Part shown: positions 13,950-64,000 of the stretch, piece after piece
Layout of the letters: each line of letters starts with the position of its first letter
Position numbering within the stretch: the first letter of the stretch is position 1
Source of the DNA: Nostoc linckia FACHB-104
GTDB lineage: Bacteria > Cyanobacteriota > Cyanobacteriia > Cyanobacteriales > Nostocaceae
Reading direction: 5' to 3'
DNA: 64,000 nt
Assembly: GCF_014696615.1 (NCBI RefSeq)
Contig: NZ_JACJQJ010000014.1
Span: 1 to 64,000 of the forward strand
Notes under the pieces: generated by a model
Told to the model about the DNA's origin: nothing
Database searches by the model: none
What the model saw: only the letters and a program-made list of their open reading frames with translations
Made by a program: the position numbers and the translations under genes

Positions 13950-14768
13950 CTATTTTCTATTTCTGGCGAATATATTGTTATTTACGGGTTGATTATTTTC
14001 CATTAAACTTTGAGCAATCACACTGATAGTTTTTGTCCAAGGATGCTCTGGATAACGCATAGAGAAAATATCACTACTAGCTAAATGAAACATTTCCTCA
14101 CAAACAGGTAAAATCCCAGCAACAGGAACTTTATAAATATCTTGAACTTGTTGTTTTAAAGATGGAGTATTTAAGCTAGGTAATACTTTATTCATTACTA
14201 ATAGCATTTTTGGAACTTCTAATTTACGTGCCACATCAATTGTGACTGCTGTTCCTTGATAGTCTTGTTTGTCAGGGCGTAAAATTACCAGTAATATATC
14301 TGAAATAATCACCGAAAGTAGAGTTTCTTCGTTAATGCCAGGGTGAGTATCAATAAATAAATAATCTAACTGTAAACGCTGCATGAGTTGGCGAAATCCA
14401 TCATTGAGTAAACGCGCATCATATCCTTCACGGAGAATTCGAGATATTTCTCCAGTTTTGATGCTGGATGGAATTAGATAGATTTTGCCGCGATTATTTG
14501 TAAACCAACCTTTGCGTGTTGCAAATACAGAACTGACATCATAGGTAGCGGCTTCAATTGCACAACGTCCCCATAAGTAATCATTAAGTGTGTATTTGAC
14601 TTTAGTTTCATCTAACCCAAAGGGGACGTGAATCCCAGGTGATTGAATATCTGTGTCTACAATTCCTACTCGCGCACCCCCACGCGCCAATACAGTTGCG
14701 AGATTTGCAGTCACGTTAGATTTACCTGTACCACCACGAAATGAGTGAATAGAAATAATTTTTGTCAT
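13950..14768 (-). CDS. MinD/ParA-family ATPase (272 aa)
   Basis: This is a P-loop ATPase of the deviant Walker A type. The motif is SFRGGTGKS (residues 9-17), with Arg11 where MinD/ParA proteins usually carry the signature lysine. Switch I/II regions are visible as DTDIQSPGIHVPFG and LDYLFIDTHPGINEETL, and the nucleotide-specificity region is LLVMNKVLP. These ATPases dimerise on ATP and position partners on membranes or DNA. The gene lies 78 bp downstream of the haem/HAMP protein on the same strand and probably forms an operon with it. The partner in cell positioning is not evident. Confidence 0.88.
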   Translation of the reverse strand: MTKIISIHSFRGGTGKSNVTANLATVLARGGARVGIVDTDIQSPGIHVPFGLDETKVKYTLNDYLWGRCAIEAATYDVSSVFATRKGWFTNNRGKIYLIPSSIKTGEISRILREGYDARLLNDGFRQLMQRLQLDYLFIDTHPGINEETLLSVIISDILLVILRPDKQDYQGTAVTIDVARKLEVPKMLLVMNKVLPSLNTPSLKQQVQDIYKVPVAGILPVCEEMFHLASSDIFSMRYPEHPWTKTISVIAQSLMENNQPVNNNIFARNRK

Positions 14769-14846: not shown

Positions 14847-15926
14847 TTATTCTTCGGGATTGTTATATTGATTGCGAATCTCTTTGGCTGTTTGTTGCAA
14901 TTTTTGGAAATAATCGCTCTCAGCAATTTCCTCAACTTGATGTATCCGTTTGCTGTTATCGATTTCTACACGTAATTGTTTTAACTGTGCGGATAATTGT
15001 TGTTCGCGATCGCAAACTTCGCGTACCATCTTCTGAAATACCCTTCCCAGTTGCCCTAGTTCGTCGGTACGTTGGGCAATTTGGGTGAGTCCTTGGCGTT
15101 CTAAATCTCGGACTTCGTTAGCGCTAACGGTTTCGCGGCTAATTGTTTGGGCAAGTTGAGCCATTGGTTTTAAAGGTTGAATTACTCTCCACTTAAGTAA
15201 GTAGTTAATGGACACTAGAACTAATGCAAAAATGCCAATGAATATGCTGATGAACAGGAAAAGTGCGTTGCGGGCGTTACCGAAGACTTCGCTAGCTGGA
15301 ATATAAATAATCTGAGTCCCAATAATTTGATTGAGCTTCCAGCCGTAACCGTTTTGAGTACCGTAGCGTTCGACGTGGCTTTTGGGTGCTTGCTCTGGGC
15401 TACCATGACACTTAAGACAGCTAGAACTGTTAACTACCAATGGTTGAGCCGTGTAAAATAACTGTTCTCCAGCTTGGGAACGTAAATCTGAGAGACTTTT
15501 TAAAGTGCGATCGCTCTCAAACCGCTCAATTAATTTTGCCTCAAAGCGGTCAGCTTGGTCATTGAGATTCGTAGGATTCAGCGTCGCCTGTTTGTAAATC
15601 AAATCTTTATACTGCCAATTGGCTTTGAGATTATCAAAGACTCGTTTAGCGGCGATGCTGGGTACAGTTTCGGGGATAAATTCATTTTGCGGATCGGCAA
15701 TTTGGGTAATTAGCGGCGCAATATCATTACTGGTATAGCTTCTGACCGAGTTGACTATCTGTATTGCCATCTGTCCGCGTGCATTCATCTCCCCTAACGC
15801 TTTTTGTTCCAAGGCTTTAGATAATGCAAATCCCCCTAATCCAATTCCAGCAATAAAAATGAGTGTTAGCAGTAGCGTAAATTGAGATGCAAGTTTAAAA
15901 CGTCCCAGCATTTTCGCAAATTCCAT
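14847..15926 (-). CDS. Membrane protein with c-type haem (Tll0287-like/DUF3365), HAMP and coiled coil
   Basis: An N-terminal membrane helix (about 13-35) leads into an extracytoplasmic domain of the Tll0287/DUF3365 type. This carries a covalent haem-attachment motif SSSCLKCHG (Cys170, Cys173, His174). A second membrane helix (about 220-243), a HAMP linker (to ~300) and a C-terminal coiled coil follow. There is no kinase or methyl-accepting domain, so the output must pass to a partner. The MinD-like ATPase encoded next is the natural candidate. The frame also has a TTG one codon upstream; the ATG is used. The expected role is redox, NO or CO sensing, or peroxide-linked signalling (inference). 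Confidence 0.88.
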   Translation of the reverse strand: MEFAKMLGRFKLASQFTLLLTLIFIAGIGLGGFALSKALEQKALGEMNARGQMAIQIVNSVRSYTSNDIAPLITQIADPQNEFIPETVPSIAAKRVFDNLKANWQYKDLIYKQATLNPTNLNDQADRFEAKLIERFESDRTLKSLSDLRSQAGEQLFYTAQPLVVNSSSCLKCHGSPEQAPKSHVERYGTQNGYGWKLNQIIGTQIIYIPASEVFGNARNALFLFISIFIGIFALVLVSINYLLKWRVIQPLKPMAQLAQTISRETVSANEVRDLERQGLTQIAQRTDELGQLGRVFQKMVREVCDREQQLSAQLKQLRVEIDNSKRIHQVEEIAESDYFQKLQQTAKEIRNQYNNPEE

Positions 15927-16490
15927 CAACGGTCTCTCTTATTCATATATCTGAGACCTGTTAACTCGATCAGATTTTCCAGGATTCTGCAACAAGTCTT
16001 TATTCCCACTGGGGTAAAGGACTTCCAACTAAAAAAAATATCCTATCGCTAGGGGTAGCAGAGGAAGCAGGGGAGCAGAGGAGCAGAGGAGCAGAGGTAA
16101 AAAAAGAATTTGCTTAATATCTTCGCCCTTGCTGATTGAATAATTTATTTTCTGGAACGCCCTAACGGGGAAAGGTATTGAGCCGCTTTCTGCCTGGTGG
16201 GAATGCAACCATGAGCGCGATATCTGACGACAAGCCACTGCGTGTCTACGCTTCACCAAATTCCCTCATCTTTCGATATCCAACTTTAGTTGGAGACAGT
16301 TTGATTGAGATCCATCTTTTGGTAATCCAAACTATTTGCCGATGGCTTTCCTCTGCCTGATTTCCTACTATGAACACATGAAGCGAAACGAAAAGCGCAG
16401 CGAAAACAACCAAGATAAAACAAATTATAACCTGGTTAATACAAGCTGCTAAATCTTAAAACATTACACAATTAACAAGGAAGAAAAATT
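15927..16490. other. 564-bp region upstream of the precursor-peptide array
   Basis: It contains an agcagagg-type tandem repeat (about 16061-16098) related in inverted orientation to ctccctctg repeats at 19555-19590. A stretch with 'ccactgcgtgtctacg' resembles a dispersed cyanobacterial repeat. The last ~100 bp, AT-rich and starting with aacctggtt at 16431, probably holds the promoter of the peptide array. Two short ORFs here look like chance frames. Confidence 0.6.
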
Positions 16491-16745
16491 ATGTCTAACG
16501 AAATCAAAAACATCGCTGCTGTTGAACTCTCTGAAGATGAATTAGATAACGTGGCTGGTGGTTTTGGAATTATTCTTGGTGATGGACAAAGCTTAGGACT
16601 GAACACTGGTAGTACCTTCCAACAAAAAAATCTGACAGTTGGTCAACAAACATTTGCAGGCCCTCATGGTGCTGGTACAACCACATTGGTTAATGTTCAA
16701 GAAATCATCAGCCACGCTGGTCAAGAACTGATTATTGGTAACTAA
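16491..16745 (+). CDS. Double-glycine-leader precursor peptide 1 (84 aa)
   Basis: A 24-residue leader ends ELSEDELDNVAGG, the pattern recognised by C39-peptidase ABC exporters, which cut after the GG. The predicted 60-residue core is Gly/Thr/Gln/Asn-rich and has no cysteine (GIILGDGQSLGLNTGSTFQ ... TTTLVNVQEIISHAGQE). An AAGGAAG ribosome site precedes the ATG. It is the first of four tandem paralogues; its leader is identical to that of the second. It fits the bacteriocin-type precursors of cyanobacteria. Lack of Cys argues against lanthipeptide or disulfide maturation. The product's activity is unknown, and no exporter or modifying enzyme lies nearby. Confidence 0.85.
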   Translation: MSNEIKNIAAVELSEDELDNVAGGFGIILGDGQSLGLNTGSTFQQKNLTVGQQTFAGPHGAGTTTLVNVQEIISHAGQELIIGN

Positions 16746-16759
16746 TTCCTAGAATTAAC

Positions 16760-16802
16760 AACCTGGTTTGCTCACAATTCAACAATATATCAAAACCAGG
16801 TT
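16760..16802 (+). repeat. Intercistronic hairpin after peptide 1
   Basis: Perfect 10-bp arms aacctggttt and aaaccaggtt flank a 23-nt loop. No T-run follows, so it looks more like an RNA-processing or stabilising hairpin than a terminator. The same arm sequence recurs after peptides 2 and 3. Confidence 0.75.
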
Positions 16803-16863
16803 ATCTCTTCTACTTCACATTTGTAAACACACATTAACTCATTAAATTGCAAGGAATAAAGTC

Positions 16864-17124
16864 ATGTCTAACGAAATCAAAAATATCGCTGCTGTTGAAC
16901 TCTCTGAAGATGAACTAGATAACGTTGCTGGCGGTTTTGGTGGAATTATTCTTGGTGGTGGTCAAACTCTCTCATTAGGTACTGACAGCACTTTCCAACA
17001 AAAAAATCTGGCAGTTGCTCAACAAACAATTGCAGGCCCTGGTGGTGCTGGTACAACCACATTGGTTAACGCTCAAGAAATCTTCAGCAACGCTGGTCAA
17101 GGACTGTTTGTTGGTAACGCTTAA
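16864..17124 (+). CDS. Double-glycine-leader precursor peptide 2 (86 aa)
   Basis: This is the closest paralogue of peptide 1. The leader is identical for 24 residues. The core is 62 residues and aligns along its whole length with peptide 1 (GGIILGGGQTLSLGTDSTF ... GAGTTTLVNAQEIFSNAG), with a two-residue extension. The shared pattern suggests that the core fold, not only the leader, is under selection. An AAGGA ribosome site lies upstream. The core has no Cys, Trp or Tyr. Peptides 1 and 2 might act together as a two-component product, which is inference. Confidence 0.85.
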   Translation: MSNEIKNIAAVELSEDELDNVAGGFGGIILGGGQTLSLGTDSTFQQKNLAVAQQTIAGPGGAGTTTLVNAQEIFSNAGQGLFVGNA

Positions 17125-17130
17125 AATTAA

Positions 17131-17178
17131 AAACCTGGTGTAATCACACTTCAATATTTCATTAACACCAGGTTTTTT
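17131..17178 (+). terminator. Hairpin with T-run after peptide 2
   Basis: Perfect 10-bp arms aaacctggtg and caccaggttt are followed directly by a run of six T's counted from the arm end. This is the form of a rho-independent terminator or attenuator placed between peptides 2 and 3. Confidence 0.7.
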
Positions 17179-17235
17179 CTTCCACATTACATTTCAATTC
17201 ACACACAAAATCATTACATCATCAGGAGTGCAATT

Positions 17236-17472
17236 ATGTCACCAGAAATCGCAAACATCGCTGCTATTGAACTTTCTGAAGCTGAATTAGATAAATTTGC
17301 TGGTGGATTAAAAACAATTAATGAGCCAGAACCAACTTACCATATTCAGCCATATCCTTACTTTGGTTCACATCCAACAATTCCTCAACAAATATTTCCT
17401 TGCTTTGGCAGCAATCATATTATTGATAGTGGTTTCCATGAGCCGACACAAAAACTATTAGTTGATGGCTAA
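17236..17472 (+). CDS. Double-glycine-leader precursor peptide 3, Pro/aromatic-rich core (78 aa)
   Basis: The leader is a diverged version of the same 24 residues, ending ELSEAELDKFAGG. The 54-residue core is unrelated to peptides 1 and 2. It is rich in Pro, His, Tyr and Phe (YHIQPYPYFGSHPTIPQQ, FPCFGSNH) and has a single cysteine. CAGGAGTG supplies a good ribosome site. A core so different behind a shared leader is the usual sign of a leader-guided export or modification system that handles several products. No modifying enzyme is in the window. Confidence 0.8.
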   Translation: MSPEIANIAAIELSEAELDKFAGGLKTINEPEPTYHIQPYPYFGSHPTIPQQIFPCFGSNHIIDSGFHEPTQKLLVDG

Positions 17473-17488
17473 TTCTGAAAATTAGCAC

Positions 17489-17526
17489 CCTGGTTGGTCA
17501 CAACTAGATATCTCATCTACACCAGG
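17489..17526 (+). repeat. Intercistronic hairpin after peptide 3
   Basis: Arms cctggt and accagg (6 bp perfect, longer if one mismatch is allowed) flank a 26-nt loop. It is a degenerate member of the cctggtt/aaccagg series found after peptides 1 and 2. Confidence 0.55.
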
Positions 17527-17589
17527 TTCTTGCTTCTACTTTAGATTTTAAATTACAGGTTAACTCATTAAATTATCAGGAGCAAAATG

Positions 17590-17835
17590 ATGTCCGAACA
17601 AATCAAAAATATTGTTACTATTGAACTTTCTGAAACTGAATTAGATAACGTTGCTGGTGGAATAGCAAAAGTTAGTACTCAAGAAGAAATTTACGATAGC
17701 AATCCCGATCCTAGCTTTGTAGCGCATCCAACAAATCCTCAACCTACATTTCCTAGTTTTCCTAGCTTCCCTAGTTTTCCCTCAATTACTCTAGAGATAC
17801 CATCAATATCTTTCCCGGGAAATGTTAATCATTGA
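17590..17835 (+). CDS. Double-glycine-leader precursor peptide 4 with Pro-Ser-Phe repeats (81 aa)
   Basis: The leader ends ELSETELDNVAGG. Two adjacent ATGs exist (17587 and 17590); the second gives the same 24-residue leader length as the paralogues and better spacing from AGGAG. The 57-residue core carries a tandem PSF motif (TFPSFPSFPSFPS), encoded by nearly perfect 9-bp DNA repeats that could expand or contract. It is proline-rich, acidic near its start, and without cysteine. It shares an HPTNPQPTFP-like segment with the HPTIPQQIFP of peptide 3, so peptides 3 and 4 form a second subfamily. Confidence 0.8.
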   Translation: MSEQIKNIVTIELSETELDNVAGGIAKVSTQEEIYDSNPDPSFVAHPTNPQPTFPSFPSFPSFPSITLEIPSISFPGNVNH

Positions 17836-18252
17836 TGCTACCAAGATATATCAATTTCGATGTAAAAGAAGTTCATCTTCAATCAGGTTAAACGCTGAAC
17901 ATAGGTAACTAAATTACTCTCTAATCACTTATTGATTCTTTATCCTCTCCACACAAACCTACCTCTTGTTGTCATTAACTAAACAGAGGTAGTTTTTTTA
18001 TGTGATAAAACTAATGCGTAGGCGTAGCCCATCGTAGACATCGCACTTGTCGGTTTTGCGTCCATGTATACTCGGCAGGCGATCGCATTTATTTATTGAA
18101 TTCTCGTTACAATTCCGGAAAAAAGGCTAAATATTTAGTAAATGCACCCTTGACACTCCTTTGCACTGGTTAAATCTACCTTGACTTTTGTCAACAAATA
18201 GTATTCAGACATACAATTTGGTCGAAAAAGTCAAGTTTTTTCTTTTACAACA
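17836..18252. other. Spacer after the precursor-peptide array
   Basis: It holds a strong terminator at 17959-17999, HIP1 sites and a 'gcgtaggcgtagccc' repeat-like stretch. No fifth leader sequence was seen. Confidence 0.6.
17959..17999 (+). terminator. Rho-independent terminator of the precursor-peptide array
   Basis: An 8-bp stem (ctacctct / agaggtag) is followed immediately by seven T's. It lies about 125 bp after the stop of peptide 4 and closes the array on the plus strand. Confidence 0.8.
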
Positions 18253-55742: not shown

Positions 55743-55994
55743 GCTACTGAGTTAAGAATAGCCACTACTGAGTTGAGCAAAGCCACTATTGAGTTAAGAA
55801 TAGCCGCTACTGAGTTGAGCAAAGCCACTATTGAGTTGAGAATAGCCACTACTGAGTTGAGAATAGCCACTACTGAGTTGAGAATAGCCACTACTGAGTT
55901 GAGAATAGCCGCTACTGAGTTGAGCAAAGCCACTACTGAGTTGAGAATAGCCACTACTGAGTTGAGAATAGCCACTACTGAGTTGAGAATAGCC
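55743..55994. repeat. 21-bp minisatellite, 12 units
   Basis: Twelve head-to-tail units of 21 bp, most reading actactgagttgagaatagc plus c. Variants gct/act at the start and gagcaaagcc/gagaatagcc at the end show a higher-order pattern. There are no unique spacers, so it is not a CRISPR. Because 21 is a multiple of three, both strands read through as 7-residue repeats (ATTELRI on plus, LNSVVAI on minus), but neither has a convincing start and ribosome site. The array ends in a hairpin (gccactat ... atagtggc, 55993-56016). Confidence 0.92.
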
Positions 55995-56119
55995 ACTATT
56001 GACTTAACGATAGTGGCTTCTGTTGTTGTAACTATCTGCCACGTGATGCATTCAAAATGGTATTCTTGGGTTCAGACATGATAACAATGCCTAATCGTTC
56101 CAATTTATTCATAAAAATA

Positions 56120-60086: not shown

Positions 60087-63000
60087 TTACACGAATGTGG
60101 CAGATCCATATAGTGGTAAGTATGCATCTGCAATCGTTGAAAACTGACCTTTACTGTTAATAGTCACATCTAACAAGTCAATGGGATTTGTATTACTAAA
60201 TGATGGCAAGATTCCCTTAATTCTTTCGCTGCTAACTTCTGTCAGCGTGGCAGTTTTACCGCCAATAATTACTTGAGTATTTGCCAACGTACCAAAGTTC
60301 TTACCACCAATCACAAATGTATTCTTACCTGCATCATTATTAGCAGGTGCGCGCCAAGGAAAGATATCGTAAGCGGTGACACCTATCGCCGCAGAATCAT
60401 TAGGAGTCGCGACTGTGATTTTTTTATCACTATAGTTGATGCCCACAAGCGCACCGCCTGGGCCTGTTAAGATATCTAACCCACCGCCAACATTATTGAT
60501 AGTATCGATTTTTTGTACCTTTTTACCATCTGCTGATAGTTGGTAAGTAGAAACTTCCGCATTCCAGCGCTGGGTAATTAAATTGCCTCGTAATTGATTG
60601 TTGAATGTTGTAGCTCGATATTCATCAATACCATTAGTTGAGGCCATATTAGTAGCAATAGGAGCAGTATATACTCCTGGAATACTCGCTTGTGATGGAT
60701 CGTAATAAACATTCTGGCGAGGATCTGAAACGCCACGATTTCGGTTAGGGCTACCATAATAATTACCCTGTTCAATCAGGTTGAGTTCATCAGGAGCGCC
60801 AGTTGCAGGTTTCTGAGTTGTAGCTGAGGTAGAAATATCTCCAAAACCTGGGTTATGACCGTTGTCTGTGGCATAAAGTAATCCTTTGGTGGAAAACACA
60901 GCATCATAAGGATTCCGCAGTCCACTAGCATAAACAGACACATCAACCCCAGGTTTCACACTGGCTTTATCTCCAAACACCTGACTAATGGCTGGGTCAA
61001 AAGTCAATCCGGCTGGCGGTTGGAAATTCGATGGTAAAGAATACTGAACTTTACCATTAAAGGTAGGTTTGGAAATTTCTGCCTTGAGGATAGCAGCAGA
61101 GAAGGGAGATTCTGGAATCCCACCTATATTGTCATTGGTAATCCCGGCATTAGTATTACCACCAACATTAATGTATAAATCGCCTTTATTATCAAAAGTT
61201 AAACCGTTAATGCCGTGGTCATGGTTAGAAGTTGGTAGACCTGTGACTAAAGGTATCAACTGGGAAAAGTTAGTTCCTTGCAGAATAGACACTTGACCGC
61301 TGTAAGGCGAAAGTTCTGTCTGAGGAAAAGCTCCGCCACGATTGGCATAGAGCTTACTATGAGCCACGTAGATGCTAGGTGCATCAGAGGTATCATAAGG
61401 GTTAAAGGCGAGACCTAAAATGTCACTGTTATACAAACCCTTAAGAGTAGTAATCTCTTGGGTATTGGTAACGTTGTAATTCTGATCGAAAGTGTATGCC
61501 CTGATAGTGCCATCGTAATCGCCTACGTAAAGTCTGCCATCTGGGCCCCAAGCTCCTGTAGTAGGGCCAGCAGGTGTAGACACATTGATTGTCGCTACTA
61601 CTTTTTGCGTAAAGCTGATGGGAACTGTTTCGTTATCTGCGATGCTAACAGCAACTTGGGGAATGCTGAGATTGTTATATGTGCTATCGGCACTGGTAAC
61701 GCTATGACTAATGTTAACTGTGTGATTACCTTCTACAGTAGTATCGTTAACGGCATTGACAGTAACAGCTTGTGCAATATTCCAGTTATCAGGAGTAAAT
61801 GTGAAACTACTCTTGTTGAGGGTGATTTGGTTAGCTTTGTCTGTTACTAAGTTAATCGTGACATTGGTGGTGGGTTTGCTATTTAAAACTAATGAGTAAC
61901 TATCACCAGCACCACCTTCCGCAACTGCTGTACTACCCCCCGTTTGTTGCAAAATAACTTGTGACCCAGTTACGGGAATGATTTCAATCGCTGAGATTGT
62001 AGCATTGTTAACGCTAGCATCTAAATTGAGGTTGAGTTTGCCATCACTTACACTTTGGGTAGGAACAGATAATACTAAAGCAGAGTTATTTCCAGGGAAG
62101 AAAGCATTTTTAGATTGTTTAAAAATGTCTACATTGGAGAAAACTTTCTGACCTTCTAAAGAGATATCAAATACCCGTTGATCGAAGTCAGTCCAGTAAT
62201 TTTCTGAGAAGTGAAGATTTACTGTATAGTTACCGTTTGCTACAGGAATTTCGTAAGCCAAGTTTTGGGCATAACGGTCTGTTTGATATAAGATGTCATC
62301 TTCTGTTTTACCAATAGGTGCTGTGACAGTATAGACATTACTAGTTCCAATAGAATATTGATCGGCTTGCCATACTTGACCTTTCGTATCAGTAAAACTT
62401 TTAGTTGCGCCTACATCAATCCGAATCGCTCCAGGCGTAGGAGTGGGATTAGTATCGTTATCGGTAATAGTAACTGCAACGTTACCCACAGCCAGATTGT
62501 TATATTTGCTATCTGTGCTACTAACGGTGTGGGTAATATTCGCTGTGTGAGTTCCTTCAACCGCAGTATCGTTAACGGCTGTGACCGTTACTGTTTGTGC
62601 TGTATTCCAGTTACTCGGAGTAAAGGTAAAGCTGGTTTTATTGAGTGTAACTTGGTTACCAGTAGTCGCAAGGTTAATTGTGACATTGGCGGTAGGTTGG
62701 CTGTTGAGAACTAATGCATAACTATCTGTAGCGCCACCTTCAGTTACCGCAGTATTTCCGCCACTCTGCTGCACAATTACCTGTGCAGTTGGAGCAGTAT
62801 CGTTATCGGTAATAGTGACTGCAACATTACCCACAGCCAGATTGTTATATTTACTATCTGTGCTACTAACGGTGTGGGTAATATTAGCCGTGTGATTCCC
62901 CTCAACAGCAGTATCATTAACGGCTGTGACGGTTACTGTTTGAGCGATATTCCAGTTACTCGGGGTGAAGGTAAAGCTGGTTTTATTGAGGGTAACTTGG

Positions 63001-64000
63001 TTACCAGTAGTCGCAAGGTTAATTGTGACATTGGCGGTAGGTTGGCTGTTGAGAACTAGTGAATAACTATCTGTAGCGCCACCTTCAGTCACCGCAGTAT
63101 TTCCGCCACTCTGCTGCACAATTACCTGTGCAGTTGGAGTCGTAGTCAGGGGAATAATTTCAATCGCGTCAACTTTGGCATTGTTGATACTGGAGAGGAA
63201 TTTTAAATTCAGTGTGCCATCTGCAACTTTGACTGTAAATGACTTGTCTAAAGCTGTGTTAGCTGCACCAGCTTCTTTAAAAATATCCAAGTCATCAATT
63301 TTTAGCTGATCTTCTGCATTCACATCAAATACGCGCTGACCTGCTCCCGTAAAGAACAGTTCTGCAAACTTCAGCTTGACTGTATAGTCTCCGTTAGTGA
63401 CTGGGATTGCATAAGAAAAGTCATTCAGCCAGCGTTCGTTTTGATAAAGAGGGTCTTCTACTGTATTGGCGATCGCAGCTGTTGTTGCATAGGTGTTCCC
63501 ACCAGAAAAATATTGATCTGCAAGCCACTGATTACCTTGGCTATCTGTATAAGCTGCTCCACCTGCATTAATACGTATGGCTTTACCTGTGGGAGCAGTA
63601 TCGTTATCGGTAATAGTAACTGCAACATTACCCACAGCCAGATTGTTATATTTACTATCTGTGCTGCTAACGGTGTGGGTAATATTAGCTGTGTGATTCC
63701 CCTCAACAGCAGTATCATTAACCGCTGTGACCGTTACTGTTTGTGCTGTATTCCAGTTACTCGGAGTAAAGGTAAAGCTGGTTTTATTGAGGGTAACTTG
63801 GTTACCAGTAGTCGCAAGGTTAATTGTGACATTGGCGGTAGGTTGGCTGTTGAGAACTAATGAATAACTATCAGTAGTTCCACCTTCGGTTACCGCAGTA
63901 TTTCCACCACTCTGTTGCACAATTACCTGTGCAGTTGGAGCCGTAGTCAGAGGAATAATTTCAATCGCATCAACTTTGGCATTGTTGACACTGGAGAGGA
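60087..64000 (-). CDS. Malectin / Calx-beta-like / beta-propeller / TIG surface protein, 5' end beyond window
   Basis: The reading frame stays open to the last base, so more than 1300 residues are present and the true start is outside. From the visible N-terminal side the order is: end of a malectin domain, Calx-beta-like repeat, malectin, two Calx-beta-like repeats, malectin (the DFDQRVFDISLEGQKVF type), another Calx-beta-like domain, propeller (TGAWGPDGRLYVG, HGINGLTFDNKGDLYINVG, YASGLRNPYDAVF), and TIG (NTFVIGGKNFGT). Three Calx-like units are nearly identical at DNA level, implying recent duplication or conversion. Its last 600 residues closely parallel the neighbour. Both end in a hydrophobic SA-(I/T)-FV tail that could belong to a type I secretion signal. 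Confidence 0.9.
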   Translation of the reverse strand, partial: LSSVNNAKVDAIEIIPLTTAPTAQVIVQQSGGNTAVTEGGTTDSYSLVLNSQPTANVTINLATTGNQVTLNKTSFTFTPSNWNTAQTVTVTAVNDTAVEGNHTANITHTVSSTDSKYNNLAVGNVAVTITDNDTAPTGKAIRINAGGAAYTDSQGNQWLADQYFSGGNTYATTAAIANTVEDPLYQNERWLNDFSYAIPVTNGDYTVKLKFAELFFTGAGQRVFDVNAEDQLKIDDLDIFKEAGAANTALDKSFTVKVADGTLNLKFLSSINNAKVDAIEIIPLTTTPTAQVIVQQSGGNTAVTEGGATDSYSLVLNSQPTANVTINLATTGNQVTLNKTSFTFTPSNWNIAQTVTVTAVNDTAVEGNHTANITHTVSSTDSKYNNLAVGNVAVTITDNDTAPTAQVIVQQSGGNTAVTEGGATDSYALVLNSQPTANVTINLATTGNQVTLNKTSFTFTPSNWNTAQTVTVTAVNDTAVEGTHTANITHTVSSTDSKYNNLAVGNVAVTITDNDTNPTPTPGAIRIDVGATKSFTDTKGQVWQADQYSIGTSNVYTVTAPIGKTEDDILYQTDRYAQNLAYEIPVANGNYTVNLHFSENYWTDFDQRVFDISLEGQKVFSNVDIFKQSKNAFFPGNNSALVLSVPTQSVSDGKLNLNLDASVNNATISAIEIIPVTGSQVILQQTGGSTAVAEGGAGDSYSLVLNSKPTTNVTINLVTDKANQITLNKSSFTFTPDNWNIAQAVTVNAVNDTTVEGNHTVNISHSVTSADSTYNNLSIPQVAVSIADNETVPISFTQKVVATINVSTPAGPTTGAWGPDGRLYVGDYDGTIRAYTFDQNYNVTNTQEITTLKGLYNSDILGLAFNPYDTSDAPSIYVAHSKLYANRGGAFPQTELSPYSGQVSILQGTNFSQLIPLVTGLPTSNHDHGINGLTFDNKGDLYINVGGNTNAGITNDNIGGIPESPFSAAILKAEISKPTFNGKVQYSLPSNFQPPAGLTFDPAISQVFGDKASVKPGVDVSVYASGLRNPYDAVFSTKGLLYATDNGHNPGFGDISTSATTQKPATGAPDELNLIEQGNYYGSPNRNRGVSDPRQNVYYDPSQASIPGVYTAPIATNMASTNGIDEYRATTFNNQLRGNLITQRWNAEVSTYQLSADGKKVQKIDTINNVGGGLDILTGPGGALVGINYSDKKITVATPNDSAAIGVTAYDIFPWRAPANNDAGKNTFVIGGKNFGTLANTQVIIGGKTATLTEVSSERIKGILPSFSNTNPIDLLDVTINSKGQFSTIADAYLPLYGSATFV
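62451..63940. repeat. Long intragenic repeats encoding Calx-beta-like units
   Basis: Near-identical ~345-bp units begin at about 62451, 62796 and 63598, each opening agtatcgttatcggtaatag. Between the second and third lies a ~455-bp malectin segment. The same malectin segment restarts at about 63940 and runs off the window, so a ~800-bp malectin-plus-Calx unit is itself tandemly repeated. Confidence 0.85.

Follow-up and report, generated by a model that had tools for sequence, protein, structure and literature searches.

A CTB-family precursor array in Nostoc linckia FACHB-104 as the probable peptide half of a split NHLM-type export locus

The window, the whole 64-kb stretch of DNA that was analysed, lies on contig C46 of a draft host assembly of 9.39 Mb in 181 contigs (G000). 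Between positions 16491 and 17835 of its forward strand, four tandem open reading frames (ORFs) of 84, 86, 78 and 82 codons are found, each with a purine-rich ribosome site of the AAGGA/AGGAG type ahead of it, and copies of a gene start with its spacer recur every 354-373 bases. The array and its surroundings comprise the following features, where bit scores refer to the NCBI family model NF038167.

13950..14768, minus strand: ParA/MinD-like ATPase gene adjoining the Tll0287/HAMP gene on the same strand (PF13614, PF10609)
14847..15929, minus strand: Tll0287-like (DUF3365, c-haem CXXCH) plus HAMP protein, divergent from the array (PF11845 1.8e-39, PF00672 1e-5)
16491..16745, plus strand: CTB-family precursor 1, 84 aa (leader 1-24; core FGIILG...IIGN), 77.1 bits
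16760..16802, plus strand: hairpin after gene 1, AACCTGGTTT/AAACCAGGTT, with a long loop (RNA folding z -3.96; repeat I2)
16864..17124, plus strand: CTB-family precursor 2, 86 aa, a close paralogue of gene 1, 76.6 bits
17129..17177, plus strand: hairpin after gene 2 with a U-rich 3' side (RNA folding z -5.93)
17236..17472, plus strand: precursor 3, 78 aa, with the shared leader type and an unrelated core that is rich in Pro and aromatic residues and has one Cys, 18.4 bits
17587..17835, plus strand: precursor 4, 82 aa, with the shared leader type and a FPSFPSFPSFPS repeat in its core, 28.4 bits
about 17959..17999, plus strand: hairpin and T run after gene 4, a likely terminator (RNA folding z -3.02)

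All four leaders carry Leu at -12, Glu at -8, Leu at -7, a hydrophobic residue at -4 (Phe in gene 3) and a terminal GG, and thus have the Leu-12, Leu-7, hydrophobic -4 and GG of double-glycine C39 substrates. In the structure of LahT150 with a bound leader, positions -12, -7 and -4 occupy a hydrophobic groove of the C39 protease, and changes at -7 and -12 impaired cleavage by this enzyme; Glu at -8 belongs to an older leader consensus and tolerates substitution (PMC6363468, in excerpt). A leader motif composed after inspection of the array sequences matches 4 of the 205 window ORFs of at least 45 aa, all of them array genes, and 60 first-order Markov sequences of equal length gave a mean of 0.017 matches, with no sequence exceeding 1. 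The four genes for double-glycine precursors are confirmed, far beyond what chance would supply. A preliminary description of this DNA had proposed four small tandem genes with double-glycine leaders and ribosome sites of their own, which the ORFs, the motif and the Markov control bear out. Its view of the leaders as nearly identical holds for genes 1 and 2, but the leaders of genes 3 and 4 depart from these at several positions, and their cores are unrelated.

The cores of genes 1-4 contain 0, 0, 1 and 0 Cys residues, in agreement with the earlier remark that they are essentially free of Cys, and are therefore not the Cys-rich cores of lanthipeptides or other Cys-based RiPPs. They are acidic, with net charges of -1.2 to -4.1, and Gly, Gln and Asn are abundant in cores 1 and 2. 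In unmodified form, cores 1-4 have calculated average masses of about 6150.8, 6066.7, 6150.8 and 6228.8 Da. Inspection of the neighbouring ORFs by eye brought no modifying enzyme to light.

The hairpins after genes 1, 2 and 4 beat nearly all shuffled sequences, and that after gene 3 is weak (z -1.6). The strong terminator that had been described as closing the array is only part of the picture: gene 4 is indeed followed by a hairpin and T run, but strong hairpins also come after genes 1 and 2. A consensus terminator scan of the window, covering loops of 3-8 only, found none, and a promoter scan (3 sites versus a shuffle mean of 7.1, fewer than in shuffles) was uninformative. The spacer of about 560 bp noted earlier lies upstream of the array, between it and a divergent gene pair, left unmentioned in the preliminary description, that is conserved beside such arrays. 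Within the spacer an 8-bp AGCAGAGG repeat occupies 16051-16097. Elsewhere in the window are a 21-bp tandem repeat of 12.3 copies at 55744-56002, in which both strands are open and the encoded peptides repeat, and a 345-bp tandem duplication (2 copies, 94%) at 62451-63139 within a giant minus-strand ORF (60087-63920).

Genes 1 and 2 are full-length members of NF038167, the 'CTB family bacteriocin' model, whose curated cut-off is a whole-protein score of 32 bits. Genes 3 and 4 score below that cut-off, with a match confined to the leader, and their Pro-rich cores differ from CTB cores. The peptide class is already known and has been named by NCBI, and the match of genes 1 and 2 supports the initial proposal of a cyanobacterial bacteriocin-type, multi-product locus with double-glycine leaders. 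The array is like the family in the leader and full-length core of genes 1 and 2 and in its tandem arrangement; it differs in the leader-only match of genes 3 and 4 and in lying apart from an exporter. In the samples searched the family is mostly found in Nostocaceae: a CTB match at E 1e-5 was obtained in 108 of 145 genomes of that family, and an order-wide sample of 148 genomes gave a match at E 0.001 in 17 and one above the cut-off in 6.

Other searches with the array peptides returned little. Pfam gave nothing above cut-off, the viral contigs searched held no relative, two weak matches from the PDB sequences (E 0.23 and 0.55) were judged noise, and plasmids yielded four Calothrix records with matches of 51-65%. 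A scan of contigs gave seven loci, from which L090 and L091 (leader-only matches) were left out. The predicted fold of gene 1, built from 20 close sequences, is a low-confidence model with a short leader helix and a weak core hairpin (pLDDT 55.8, pTM 0.23), and was set aside as uninformative.

Of 39 genomes searched, 9 have relatives of gene 1, namely the window's own, the seven other members of its genus that were searched (G001 to G007) and one other. In G002, G005 and G007 the array has the same position, with the Tll0287/ParA pair on one side and cobW on the other, and counts 6, 6 and 7 genes. Both flanks are also present in G003, where contig ends interrupt the array. The G001 array also adjoins the Tll0287/ParA pair, but no cobW homologue comes after it and its last gene is of a different Pro-rich type. 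G004 and G006 keep arrays of the window type, situated near contig ends, and no ParA gene was found next to the Tll0287 gene of the G004 contig. The leaders of the six genes read at these two loci (L080, L081) end in DSVTGG or DSIAGG, not DNVAGG.

The window array and those of G003, G005 and G007 begin with the gene 1 type and, like that of G002, end with the gene 4 type; orthologues of gene 3 are present in G005 and G003. The gene 2 type is represented by several near-identical copies in the relatives, and, to judge from these comparisons, the array seems to grow and shrink via tandem copies. Estimates of dN/dS, all based on few changes, are 0.09-0.17 for gene 1 (five differing pairs), 0.31-0.49 for gene 3, 0.30-0.73 for gene 4 and 0.04-0.17 for the sensor gene and cobW. 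Gene 1 appears to be under purifying selection, and genes 3 and 4 appear less constrained. Between Tolypothrix sp. PCC 7712 and PCC 7601, single-base differences reported for one CTB gene and one CTB non-coding position (PMC9679502, in excerpt) fall inside the array orthologous to that of the window.

The preliminary description had called for genome-wide searches for C39 exporters and for similar precursors. In the host genome the former yielded ten C39-domain matches, two of them within NHLM exporter systems, and the latter 20 NF038167 matches at E up to 1. The window's contig C46 has no C39 match, so the statement that no exporter lies within reach holds for that contig, and the HlyD, C39-ABC, ABC2 and cNMP genes that accompany precursors in NHLM/group V loci do not stand beside the array. 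On contigs C160 and C135 of the same genome, NHLM exporter genes do adjoin double-glycine genes, C135 carrying a CTB array inside a full exporter cluster; CTB genes are also found beside a C39 transporter on C145. A second CTB array is located close to the start of C131 (L059:436-1437), where the 20 kb that were read revealed no recognisable exporter. Fragments of CTB genes lie near the ends of C54 and C85 (L066:8655-8786, L067:60-230). Such end-of-contig pieces are possibly collapsed or broken repeats of the draft, and because they lie at the contig ends of a 181-contig assembly the true copy number may exceed four.

The frequency of CTB loci distant from an exporter was examined in 15 Nostocaceae genomes, hand-picked for few contigs and for CTB matches already seen. 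There, 149 NF038167 matches (E up to 1e-6), which form 53 loci, were set against 130 C39 matches (E up to 1e-10), of which every genome has at least six. A C39 match lies within 15 kb of 21 of the 53 loci and farther from the other 32; among multi-gene loci (at least two genes), 11 of 27 have none within 15 kb. At least one of the 21 near loci (G005, 170 kb) stands beside a C39 of another type. The distant loci come from eight of the 15 genomes, the other seven having none: 19 are from G258 and G269, which belong to one genus, seven from G001, G005 and G007, and six from G172, G198 and G240. Six of the 32 are on contigs that lack any C39 match.

Separation of precursor and exporter has been considered before. 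Wang et al. (PMC3140520, in excerpt) sought precursors within 20 kb of a cluster, a range that orphan arrays would escape, and mentioned precursors far from clusters as a possibility. The same source notes that precursors or enzymes of the prochlorosins of Prochlorococcus are likewise apart from presumed export clusters; prochlorosins differ in being lanthipeptides with a LanM enzyme, whereas no modifying enzyme is apparent at the window array. The group V or NHLM clusters of the excerpted literature (PMC3140520, PMC2887384) share HlyD, a C39-ABC protein, a peptidase-less ABC protein and a double cNMP protein, and this exporter set is found in the host genome and in the linked loci of relatives.

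The window's Tll0287-like protein combines DUF3365, including CXXCH, with a HAMP domain, the make-up of sCache_heme/Tll0287 sensors. It shares the c-haem domain and HAMP architecture of the sCache_heme sensors described in a preprint (PMC12889525, in excerpt) and differs in showing no Pfam output domain after HAMP. The same preprint reports nitric oxide (NO)-sensor properties, with tight NO binding, for one haem-Cache/HAMP protein of Pseudomonas; by analogy, the cyanobacterial protein might sense NO as well. A search of 145 Nostocaceae genomes with the Tll0287/HAMP protein gave 65 matches in 51 genomes at E 1e-80. Gene order was read at 58 of them, seven low-ranking matches being left out, and 55 homologues were kept after L127, L139 and L140 fell under the tree thresholds. 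As 14 of the 55 are from the window's genus, they are not independent.

CXXCH is conserved in all 55 homologues, and 52 have a ParA homologue within 3 kb; one of the three without (L092) starts at a contig end. A double-glycine-leader ORF lies within 6 kb in 31 of 55 and a cNMP exporter gene within 8 kb in 20 of 55. The other 24 have no double-glycine gene within 6 kb, several of them having NHLM exporter genes on the other side, and since the pair also occurs without such a gene it need not serve peptides. In 18 control regions around other homologues of the protein, neither a double-glycine-leader ORF nor a ParA homologue was found (0 of 18 for each). Six of these regions are from Nostocaceae, three from the window's own genome, and L168 and L171 are shortened by contig ends; L159 and L160 contain an ABC protein distantly homologous to the C39 exporter (31% and 25%). 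On this control, chance was rejected as the cause of the linkage between Tll0287 genes and arrays. Tll0287/ParA neighbours do not appear in the excerpted cluster descriptions of Wang et al. (PMC3140520), and a literature search for a link between Tll0287/DUF3365, ParA and bacteriocins found no paper, though one may still have been published. Within the reach of that search, it is new that CTB arrays are recurrently linked to genes for a haem-Cache/HAMP protein and for a ParA-like ATPase. In G009, from another genus, four tandem CTB precursors with identical translations (L082:10142-11243) are found near a Tll0287/ParA pair, a histidine kinase and a response regulator.

In a tree of the sensor proteins, a clade of the window type has 24 sequences and a clade of a paralogous type has 31. 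Seven of the 24 window-type loci, from five genera (G174, G198, G215, G229, G240, G261 and G263), are linked to exporter genes in the order sensor gene, at least one double-glycine-leader gene and cNMP, with HlyD next in six; the sensor gene is divergent from the double-glycine genes, and a ParA-like ATPase gene is present in six. The contig end cuts off the G263 locus, and the only double-glycine gene of the G261 locus is of the C160 type. Five of the seven loci were followed further. C39-ABC appears further along the locus behind one large gene in G261 and G229 and behind several in G174; in the stretches read past HlyD in G198 and G240 no C39 was found, the nearest matches being 24 kb and more than 1 Mb away. 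The same order of double-glycine genes, cNMP, HlyD and C39 is found at 12 of the 31 paralogue-type loci, including C135 of the host, and a thirteenth (L138) has the exporter genes without a double-glycine gene. Since both sensor clades have the same gene order, the linked state presumably came first.

The host's counterpart of the linked exporters is on contig C160, where the exporter unit spans 181826-196146 with a few genes between HlyD and C39, and where the exporter proteins carry the NCBIfam names of the NHLM system (TIGR03896, TIGR03794, TIGR03796, TIGR03797).

C160 181826-184729: ABC2 protein, NHLM family by NCBIfam
C160 184952-187159: C39-ABC protein, NHLM family by NCBIfam
C160 192944-194512: HlyD protein, NHLM family by NCBIfam
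C160 194585-195682: cNMP protein, NHLM family by NCBIfam
C160 195850-196146: double-glycine peptide that passes the CTB cut-off (33.9 bits)

The gene at L063:15447-17177, between HlyD and C39 on C160, encodes a putative caspase-like protein of 576 aa; homologues are found near the split exporter pieces in G002, G005 and G007. In trees, the C39 of C160 groups with those of G174, G229 and G261 (support 96/100, several of the sequences being partial), and the cNMP and HlyD proteins of C160 fall together with their counterparts at the linked loci (support 99/97 and 100/100). Counterparts of the C160 exporter parts show 95-99% identity in G002, G005 and G007 and 71-83% in G001. The latter genome has a compact exporter (double-glycine peptide, cNMP, HlyD, C39, ABC2) at 5.52 Mb and the array with the Tll0287/ParA pair at 1.58 Mb. 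C39 does not come after HlyD in G002, G005 or G007, and in G005 and G007 the exporter is broken in two, C39-ABC2 being far from HlyD. The best cNMP matches in the drafts G004 and G006 reach 68% and 66%, as against 82-100% in the other six genus members, so that export of the C160 type would not be obligatory: either another exporter must serve there or these drafts miss the C160-type one.

On these comparisons, the locus was probably split within or before the window's genus. The C160 system is likely the ancestral exporter partner of the array, and that on C135, an intact paralogous module, is a possible substitute. That the lack of an exporter beside the array, listed earlier among its odd features, makes it an isolated case is not supported: a likely ancestral partner lies on another contig, and CTB loci away from C39 recur in relatives.

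The reading we favour, with a probability of about 0.62, is that of a split NHLM-type (Wang group V) locus whose peptide half is the array, with unmodified peptides cut after GG, exported in trans and used at the surface or in the matrix. The four tandem genes would be translated into precursors, and the C39 domain of an NHLM ABC transporter whose gene lies elsewhere would recognise their leader helix through Leu-12, Leu-7 and the hydrophobic residue at -4. Cleavage after GG would be followed by export without obvious modification, carried out in trans by the likely ancestral partner on C160 or possibly by the C135 system. The Tll0287-like haem/HAMP protein and the ParA-like ATPase may together sense a signal, with control or positioning of the system as the outcome. 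The exported peptides, acidic and copy-amplified, would be constituents of the matrix or surface and not killing agents.

The closest functional model for such a role is EbfG1-4 of Synechococcus elongatus, which are, like the products of the array, four small double-glycine proteins encoded in tandem; their efficient secretion depends on a C39-type exporter, and biofilm formation requires them (PMC4997328, in excerpt). EbfG1-3 form amyloid and have been proposed as matrix parts (PMC9981879, in excerpt). The likeness is one of organisation: mature EbfG has, according to the excerpted statement of its authors, no homology to proteins of other cyanobacteria, and the CTB model has no match in the S. 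elongatus control genome. The many near-identical copies with a conserved core suggest that the product is needed in quantity, and the composition and copy number of the array lean towards EbfG-like matrix or surface peptides and away from classical bacteriocins.

Classical bacteriocins, that is, exported peptides that kill or inhibit competing cyanobacteria or bacteria, are nevertheless what the family name and the label of NHLM systems as bacteriocin-type exporters imply, and a study of Nodularia treats CTB genes among allelopathic compounds (PMC9846622, in excerpt). The acidic cores, three of the four without Cys, speak against this role, as do near-identical copies together with a low dN/dS of gene 1 where diversification would be looked for; an unsystematic look at the neighbours also recognised no immunity gene, and we consider bacteriocin activity unlikely. 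In the same Nodularia study one CTB gene group rose modestly under phosphate limitation and a second bacteriocin cluster did not. Still less probable is a function as signals for filament development (heterocysts, hormogonia) or density sensing, for which the resemblance of the neighbouring Tll0287/HAMP gene to a sensor could be adduced, together with HetC, a C39-type exporter whose substrate is possibly encoded elsewhere (PMC10986499, in excerpt). CTB matches at E 1e-5 are missing from 37 of the 145 Nostocaceae genomes, which counts against such signalling. So does the architecture of the array, many near-identical isoforms at high copy number being unusual for a pheromone.

The absence of an exporter nearby, a dN/dS of up to 0.73 in gene 4 and the broken CTB fragments near contig ends would also be expected of a remnant drifting into decay after exporter loss. 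The array itself hardly fits this picture, with four open frames that keep their ribosome sites, a gene 1 dN/dS of 0.09-0.17 and 6, 6 and 7 genes at the same place in G002, G005 and G007; exporter parts are moreover kept in these three genomes and in G001, and decay is very improbable.

Returning to a split export locus, a more far-reaching version can be put forward, although it is speculative and we would give it small odds. Here, a periplasmic c-haem sensor, possibly of nitric oxide, would act via HAMP and a ParA/MinD-like ATPase to control or position the NHLM exporter, the dosage-amplified unmodified peptides would be an extracellular public good of filamentous cyanobacteria, and arrays and exporter would be free to live apart. 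For the CTB family as a whole, precursor searches limited to exporter neighbourhoods would miss loci such as this one. What appeared to be an orphan array becomes a probable split system with a named, likely ancestral exporter, and a first clue to what CTB peptides may respond to comes from the linkage to genes for a haem-Cache/HAMP protein and a ParA-like ATPase.
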